NCBI RefSeq assembly: GCF_006874645.1
Contig: NZ_CP030082.1
Location: 186,001-250,000, forward strand
Source: Bdellovibrio sp. ZAP7
Lineage (GTDB): Bacteria > Bdellovibrionota > Bdellovibrionia > Bdellovibrionales > Bdellovibrionaceae
Direction: 5' to 3'
DNA: 64,000 nucleotides
Notes under the pieces: model-generated
The model's input: the letters and a program-made list of their open reading frames with translations, nothing else
Databases searched by the model: none
What the model was told of the DNA's origin: nothing
Translations under genes and position numbers: made by a program
Shown: piece by piece, positions 39,689-40,894 of the stretch
Position numbering within the stretch: position 1 is the stretch's first letter
How the letters are laid out: the number at the start of each line of letters is the position of its first letter

Positions 39689-39734
39689 AAATCCTCCTCT
39701 TGGTGGAGGATATTCTTGCGTACAAAATTGAGTT

Positions 39735-39897
39735 TGTATATCGTTCTAGGCTCCTAACACAGGTGAAGTTCAGTGAAGCTGCTGTATCGCAGCCATTCTG
39801 GCGCTGTCCCGCAACGGTGACCTTTTTAAAGGAAGTCCGATCCCTGATAGGAATAACTCTACTCCGACGAAGTCGGGGTAATACAGTCCCGCGGAGG
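39735..39897 (+). promoter_or_regulatory. Cobalamin riboswitch with translational expression platform
   Basis: The leader holds cobalamin aptamer landmarks: CAGGTGAAGTTCAG (about 39770), GCTGTCCCGCAACGGTGA (about 39803-39820) and the B12-box-like AAGTCCGATCCCTG (about 39833-39846). Downstream, CTCCGAC (39862-39868) pairs with GTCGGGG (39872-39878). The same CTCCG (39862-39866) can instead pair with CGGAG (39892-39896), which overlaps the ribosome site GGAGG (39893-39897) of the thioesterase gene. This gives a plausible on/off switch for translation. The aptamer call is from consensus recall. Confidence 0.82.
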
Positions 39898-39902
39898 AAC
39901 CC

Positions 39903-40298
39903 ATGGATCTTGAACTTCGAAAGAGTTCAGCGCGCACGCGCGTTTTTAAAACTGTCTTTCCTGGAGAGACAAATCATTACAACACACTATACGGTGGCTT
40001 AGCTTTGAATTGGATGGATGAAGTTGCATTCATTGCGGCAACCCGTTTTTCCAGACAACGGTATGTCACTGTGAGCAGTGACCGAGTGAACTTTAATGTT
40101 CCGATTCCGGCAGGAACAATTGTTGAGCTTGACGCATATGTCAGTAGAATAGGTAAGAGCAGTCTGGAAGTAACGGTCGACACTTATTGTGAGGATATGT
40201 ACAGCGATAAGCGTACCAAATCGATGACCGGCGTGTTTACTTTGGTGGCCATCGACGAGAATCGCAATTCGACACCGATTAGATTTCCGGAGATTTAG
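39903..40298 (+). CDS. Acyl-CoA thioesterase (hotdog fold, YciA/ACOT type)
   Basis: 131 residues. The hotdog signature is clear: ETNHYNTLYGGLALNWMDEVAFIAA, with the Asp and the Gly-Gly helix start. DRVNFNVPIPAGTIVELDAYV and GKSSLEVTVD follow as in YciA-type thioesterases. These enzymes hydrolyse acyl-CoA to free acid and CoA in the cytoplasm. GGAGG lies 5 nt before ATG and is the element contested by the cobalamin leader. It is followed 17 nt later by the broken ATPase gene. Confidence 0.88.
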   Translation: MDLELRKSSARTRVFKTVFPGETNHYNTLYGGLALNWMDEVAFIAATRFSRQRYVTVSSDRVNFNVPIPAGTIVELDAYVSRIGKSSLEVTVDTYCEDMYSDKRTKSMTGVFTLVAIDENRNSTPIRFPEI

Positions 40299-40315: not shown

Positions 40316-40894
40316 ATGAAGAAAATGACTAAAATTGTACTGACTGGTGCTCCATCTTCTGGAAAAAGTTCTGCGCTGGATGCCATAGCCGGTCTCAAAC
40401 TTGAGAACATAGTTTTGGTTCCGGAAAGCGCAGTCGTTTTGTTAAAGGGTGGATTTCCGGCGCCTTCCCATGATGATCTGTAGCAGATCCGCAATTTTCA
40501 AAACTCTATTCTGACAGTGCAAGAGAATCTGGAAGACATTTGCGCCCGAAAAAATCCGCAGGCGACTCATATGATATTGGACCGTTCGAAGTTGGATGGG
40601 GCAGTTTTTTGGCCTCCCGGTATTGACGATTATCTTCAAAACTTTCCGGTTCGTATCGATGAAGAGTTAGCAAAATATGATCATGTACTTTTTCTGGAGT
40701 TACCTACGAAAGAACATTTTGGCGGCGTTCATCAGGCTCGATTTCACAACTTTGAACAAAGCCTTGAGAGTGAGCGCCGACTTGAGCGCGTTTGGGGGCA
40801 ACACCCTCGCTTTGTGAAGGTGCCGGCCCAGATCGACTTTGATAAAAAAATCGAATTAATTTTAAATTTTGTTAAAAAATTGATCGCAGATTAA
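40316..40894 (+). pseudogene. AAA-type ATPase/kinase gene interrupted by an in-frame TAG
   Basis: From ATG 40316 the frame gives MTKIVLTGAPSSGKSSALD, with a Walker A P-loop (about residues 11-18), and reaches TAG at 40481-40483 (codon 56). The same frame continues open and protein-like for 137 more codons (LDRSKLDGAVFWPPGID, HVLFLELPTKEHFGG, LERVWGQHPRFVKVPA) to the stop at 40894. Whole, it would be a 192-residue AAA_28-like ATPase. One substitution (for example CAG to TAG) explains the break. A second initiation at GTG 40517 would lose the P-loop. Its stop overlaps the cheW stop by 4 nt. Confidence 0.85.

Follow-up and report, generated by a model that had tools for sequence, protein, structure and literature searches.

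A putative compact cobalamin riboswitch upstream of an acyl-CoA thioesterase gene in Bdellovibrio sp. ZAP7 and the recurrence of this pairing in two phyla

The locus

The window analyzed here is a 64,000-nt stretch of the genome of Bdellovibrio sp. ZAP7 (4.12 Mb; handle G000, where G handles denote genomes and L handles denote loci). A 170-nt leader lies in this window between a divergent GFA-family gene and a thioesterase ORF, which is followed by a co-directional AAA_28 ATPase gene (Table 1). The thioesterase passes the PF03061 (4HBT) cut-off (59.6 bits vs. 20.6 bits), and its nearest solved chain is 2gvh_A (E 5.5e-48); acyl-CoA hydrolysis is the predicted activity. It shares the 4HBT fold family, a similar length and the motif with the YciA/ACOT-type hotdog thioesterases (HI0827, ACOT12, 2gvh). 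However, it fails the YciA equivalog model NF007970 (42.4 bits vs. a cut-off of 162 bits) and belongs to a separate, patchily distributed subfamily. ZAP7 also encodes a 36%-identical thioesterase paralog, which is of a kind present in nearly all genomes of the family. The AAA_28 gene is interrupted by a stop codon in ZAP7, while its counterpart is intact as 192-aa ORFs in the sister species G017 and G013, with the AAA_28 domain found in G017; this gene is possibly a second cistron.

Table 1 Features of the thioesterase locus (window coordinates; RNA motifs in RNA letters)
Feature	Position	Strand	Remarks
P1/P2 5′ strands	UCCUA 39752-39756; CAGG 39760-39763	+	MFE fold pairs both with 39843-39852
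P4, CAG/CUG	39771-39773 with 39798-39800 (element 39771..39800)	+	covaries
Hairpin inserted in P4 loop	GCUGC 39778-39782; GCAGC 39789-39793	+	sequence comparison
Conserved core GCTGTCCCGCAACGGTGA	39802..39819	+	L5 UCCCG 39807-39811; P6 5′ strand CGG 39815-39817
Accessory hairpin in P6, CCUUU/AAAGG	39821..39832	+	sequence and fold
B12-box-like end AAGUCCGAUC	39833..39852	+	P6 3′ strand CCG 39837-39839; P2 3′ strand CCUG 39843-39846
P1 3′ strand, UAGGA	39848-39852	+	
Extra 9-bp hairpin UACUCCGAC/GUCGGGGUA	39860..39880	+	holds CTCCG strand 39863-39867
Mini P13/L13	UCC 39887-39889; L13 CGCGGA 39890-39895; GGA 39896-39898	+	coincides with the Shine-Dalgarno
Acyl-CoA thioesterase of 131 aa with one hotdog (4HBT) domain	39903..40298	+	ATG at 39903
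AAA_28 ATPase gene	40316..40894	+	in-frame TAG 40481-40483

Identity of the leader

At Rfam gathering thresholds, the leader is not reported, and the sole report over the window is a tRNA elsewhere. The initial annotation had placed a cobalamin riboswitch here, with an Infernal search using RF00174 as its check. RF00174 (Cobalamin, cut-off 31.5 bits) gives zero matches across the whole ZAP7 genome, and it is a custom covariance model, R1, that matches instead. The best sub-threshold Rfam match of the leader is RF01482 (AdoCbl) at 39738-39883, with 30.3 bits (E 8e-4 for 401 bases) against a gathering threshold of 50 bits, which is passed by relatives (60.2 bits for L125/L036, 56.0 bits for L140). 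Similarly, RF01689 (AdoCbl-II, cut-off 36.5 bits) reports nothing in the window and is passed by the relatives L129, L130, L136, L146, L149 and L150. Rfam gathering thresholds overlook a good number of such elements in Bdellovibrionota.

R1, which was trained on 20 leaders, none of them from the genus of ZAP7, matches the ZAP7 leader at 39732-39905 with 52.6 bits (E 4.5e-14), the next-best match in the window reaching 14 bits, and in the 4.12-Mb genome the thioesterase leader is its single match. The structural features of the broad cobalamin riboswitch clan are found in the leader, namely covarying P1/P2, P4 and P6 helices, a B12 box and an L5 (UCCCG)–L13 pairing. The match lies far beyond chance, and the leader is almost certainly a genuine cobalamin-family riboswitch, probably of a compact, class-II/AdoCbl-like type. 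The annotated order of a cobalamin-family element ahead of a hotdog acyl-CoA thioesterase is thus upheld, as are the two motifs that had been pointed out, the core GCTGTCCCGCAACGGTGA and the B12-box-like AAGTCCGATC at 39833-39842, both of which are present in the leader.

R1 also matches the leaders of genes for TonB-dependent, BtuB-like receptors in G011 (same genus) and in G050 and G062 (same family), and the receptor domains were confirmed for the G011 gene. This occurrence in front of BtuB-like receptor genes supports a corrinoid as the probable ligand. The G011 genome, in which this riboswitch type precedes the receptor gene (L157), lacks the thioesterase.

Aptamer and expression platform

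A single-sequence fold of the ZAP7 leader is no better than that of shuffled sequences (z 0.26), and the helices are instead supported by comparison. In a covariation test over 20 pairs in 27 distinct leaders, 92.9% of the cells are paired, compared with 79.7% after shuffling and at most 49% when slid, and 64 two-sided changes are observed vs. 18.5 in the shuffled set. The inner P1/P2 helix shows two-sided changes in 4/4 pairs, and P6 is CGG/CCG in some leaders and CUG/CAG in others. The core is near-invariant across the aligned leaders, and its L5 loop, UCCCG, is the published consensus (PMC10653944). The P6 accessory hairpin is missing from the shortest relatives, e.g., L129. The hairpin in the P4 loop is an addition of the genus, occurring in G000, G017, G013 and G022 with sequences that differ through compensatory changes, and the low RF01482 score is largely due to this insert.

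The partner of L5 is CGNGGA immediately 5′ of the start codon, i.e., the Shine-Dalgarno itself. Across the 27 leaders, L5 and the start-codon-proximal region covary, the observed complementarity being reached in 0/2000 label shuffles. The deviant L5 loops (UGCCG, UCGCG) of L135, L152, L153 and L157 are accompanied by a matching change beside the start codon in all four, and the first pair of the 3-bp mini P13 is U-A or A-U in concert (Fisher p 0.002); these L5–L13 and P13 statistics ignore phylogeny, but each of the deviant loops belongs to another genus, four in all.

The initial annotation had located the switch in a CTCCG strand, which would pair either with GTCGGGG or with the ribosome site. 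Such a strand exists within the extra 9-bp hairpin and complements CGGAG of the ribosome-binding site (39892-39896), but it is not the core switch. This hairpin occurs in G000, G017 and G013 with compensatory changes and is missing from the ortholog G022, and it is considered a lineage-specific rather than a conserved switching element for this reason. Taking the CTCCG/GTCGGGG hairpin as P13, as the Rfam alignment also does, was rejected, as its loop lacks the L13 motif and G022 lacks the hairpin. The comparative evidence thus identifies L5 (UCCCG) with L13 (CGNGGA) as the conserved switch.

In analogy to cobalamin switches already studied, binding of a corrinoid would stabilize the L5–L13 kissing pairs. 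With L13 (CGCGGA) and the 3′ strand of P13 (GGA) forming the Shine-Dalgarno, the ribosome site would be buried in the presence of B12; without B12, it would be free and the thioesterase would be made. That L13 and P13 consist of the Shine-Dalgarno points most naturally to OFF control of translation, and repression of the thioesterase by B12 at this level is very probable.

Comparison with known cobalamin riboswitches

The leader shares with RF01482, RF01689 and RF00174 (clan CL00101) the core order P1/P2–P4–P5 (L5 UCCCG)–P6–B12 box and the L5–L13 kissing interaction. It differs from them in the P4-loop hairpin and in a P13 of about 3 bp that is merged with the Shine-Dalgarno. In the translational cobalamin riboswitches env8HyCbl and E. 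coli btuB, the kissing loop governs access to the ribosome site (PMC10653944). The L13 pairing of env8 is bulged, as is that of the ZAP7 leader. However, P13 in env8HyCbl and btuB promotes a separate ribosome-binding-site hairpin, whereas the Shine-Dalgarno of ZAP7 itself provides L13 and the 3′ strand of P13. The riboswitch class is therefore known, and the platform in which the Shine-Dalgarno serves as L13 is a compact variant, showing how small cobalamin expression platforms can be when loop and ribosome site share nucleotides.

The targets of B12 riboswitches are known to be genes of uptake and biosynthesis and B12-independent isozymes. The genes metE, nrdAB and btuB, which stand under cobalamin riboswitches, are B12-shortage genes, and in Bacteroidota metE, nrdB and btuB are found in operons together with the thioesterase; unlike these, it is not a transporter and is not known as a B12-independent isozyme. 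In metagenomes, a fatty-acid desaturase, ole1, was reported to stand behind a B12 riboswitch (PMC2211319), which is likewise an unexpected target in lipid metabolism but a different enzyme, and the word thioesterase is absent from the main text of that paper. No prior report of a cobalamin or B12 riboswitch paired with a thioesterase was found in the open-access literature, to which the search was confined, and the thioesterase appears to be an unreported target within that literature.

Distribution in the phylum

Orthologs of the thioesterase occur in 31/369 genomes of the phylum and in 4/24 genomes of the genus. A cobalamin-type riboswitch lies upstream in 27 of the 30 phylum orthologs that were fetched, the remaining three (L139, L141 and L143) having no cobalamin-type element upstream. 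Most of the 27 positive leaders served in the training of R1, and most of them also match Rfam cobalamin models independently (E ≤ 0.001).

In two Bacteriovorax-like genomes, the cobalamin riboswitch preceding the thioesterase has tandem arrays within its accessory region, i.e., 2.9 copies of an 86-nt unit in L069 (2653-2902) and 4.2 copies of an unrelated 89-nt unit in L134 (1965-2334). In L140 (starting at 1407) and L144 (starting at 901), a short ORF of 7-8 codons uses the ribosome site under riboswitch control, and the start of the thioesterase lies about 80-100 nt farther on, so that translational coupling is possible.

B12-controlled gene clusters outside the phylum

In a one-genome-per-species collection, the nearest relatives of the thioesterase are mostly from Bacteroidota. 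Of 76 loci outside the phylum, 36, mostly in Bacteroidota, have a same-strand cobalamin riboswitch upstream of the thioesterase, where about 0.1 would be expected. This expectation is based on 111 riboswitch matches in about 208 Mb (44 genomes), which gives about 0.0012 per locus for 4.5 kb of upstream sequence. For those loci that were assigned through genome handles, contig identity was inferred from coordinates, and L083 was left out of the count, since its match must lie on a different contig.

In 16 of these loci (Hymenobacter and Fluviicola among others), no large gene separates the riboswitch from the thioesterase downstream of it. The riboswitch lies upstream of metE–thioesterase in another 16 (Dyadobacter, Mucilaginibacter and others), of nrdB–thioesterase–nrdA in two, and of btuB–btuG–thioesterase in two Fulvivirga loci, one with cobT downstream. 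The thioesterase is thus, on the evidence of these predicted elements, a recurrent B12-regulon gene in two phyla. It had been regarded beforehand as an unusual target; its membership in the B12 regulon holds, but it is not a one-off, as the pairing recurs in many genomes.

Outside the phylum, roughly one relative in two lacks a riboswitch in its vicinity and a few adjoin fabH or murA, so that the enzyme cannot be specific to B12 in all cases. Context labels cluster on the protein tree yet require 26 changes, which implies that the linkage between riboswitch and gene was repeatedly gained or lost, and the leader–gene unit appears to travel.

Mutases and the proposed role of the thioesterase

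The only PF01642-family mutase of ZAP7 is IcmF, a fused isobutyryl-CoA mutase (NF045497, 1777 bits vs. a cut-off of 1500 bits), whose gene stands in a run with genes for enoyl-CoA hydratase and 3-hydroxybutyryl-CoA dehydrogenase. Methylmalonyl-CoA mutase and MetH were considered as the affected enzyme and dropped, neither being found in the ZAP7 genome. The PrpD family is present in ZAP7 and its relatives alike, and propionyl-CoA may therefore have a B12-free route. An AdoCbl-dependent acyl-CoA mutase occurs in 31/31 carriers of the thioesterase within the phylum and in 27/27 searched carriers outside it. Mutases are, however, nearly universal in the phylum (337/369 genomes, including all 24 of the genus), so that this co-occurrence is consistent but not diagnostic, and mutase presence was rejected as a discriminating correlate. 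In the stretches read, no thioesterase lies directly beside a mutase gene, and the mutase-related MeaB adjoins in one locus, L104.

In a shortage of AdoCbl, the mutase (IcmF in ZAP7, MCM-type in many other carriers) would stall, and short or branched acyl-CoAs would back up and trap CoA. Hydrolysis of these by the thioesterase would then release CoA and yield acids that the cell can excrete. This explanation as a whole, with a riboswitch that represses translation under B12 and a thioesterase that relieves the backup of mutase substrates, is considered probable, with moderate confidence. A link to acyl-CoAs of a B12-dependent mutase had already been suggested in the initial annotation; this putative link fits the company of metE, nrdAB and btuB and the lone IcmF.

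Another explanation keeps the B12 riboswitch as real and has the thioesterase act, when B12 is short, in the uptake or salvage of cobalamin or in changes of the envelope. The operons of btuB, btuG (DUF5074) and the thioesterase in Marivirga, Aequorivita and Fulvivirga and the cobT downstream in L075 agree with this explanation, which is nevertheless unlikely, as the thioesterase is linked at least as often to metE and nrdAB, genes without a role in uptake. A thioester is not known to take part in any step of cobalamin salvage, and for this reason relief of CoA trapping in a cell whose mutase lacks its cofactor is the favored role, held with slightly more belief than doubt.

Equally improbable is that the thioesterase behind a real riboswitch is a housekeeping-type acyl-CoA hydrolase on a mobile cassette, repeatedly captured by B12 control without a dedicated B12-related substrate. 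Such a cassette would account for the patchy distribution in the phylum (31/369), the 26 context changes and the relatives next to fabH or murA, but the association with B12 control is too frequent for it (36/76 outside the phylum, at about 0.0012 expected per locus, and 27/30 inside). That the ZAP7 element is a decayed, non-functional riboswitch, as its score under the gathering cut-off of the best-matching Rfam family and the stop codon in the downstream AAA_28 ORF might indicate, is very improbable, given that the core motifs, L5, L13 and P13 are all intact, that compensatory changes keep the helices among four sister species and that the low Rfam score stems largely from the P4 insert.

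Relief of CoA trapping can be extended, tentatively and with doubt slightly outweighing belief, to the proposal that a dedicated B12-shortage thioesterase is an unrecognized part of the B12 regulon, draining the acyl-CoAs of AdoCbl-dependent mutases, and that the version in the predatory bacteria stands under a minimal riboswitch whose kissing loop is formed by the Shine-Dalgarno. If so, the bacterial response to B12 shortage would also include metabolic relief, which would be a bacterial counterpart of the acyl-CoA build-up in human B12 and mutase defects.

Additional genes in the clusters

A small Cys-rich CWC protein is encoded between the riboswitch and the thioesterase in L046, L054, L057, L066 and L092, accompanied in L092 by DUF5522. 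A single-domain PAS (LOV-like) protein directly precedes the thioesterase in L047 (2507-2995), L052 (2438-3004) and L107 (2237-2764), and the PAS gene and the thioesterase stand behind metE in Echinicola and Spirosoma. L057 comes from a record labeled Glaciecola amylolytica (CP034120); its gene order matches that of Fluviicola (Bacteroidota) and its protein groups among those of Fluviicola, which suggests that the record is mislabeled.
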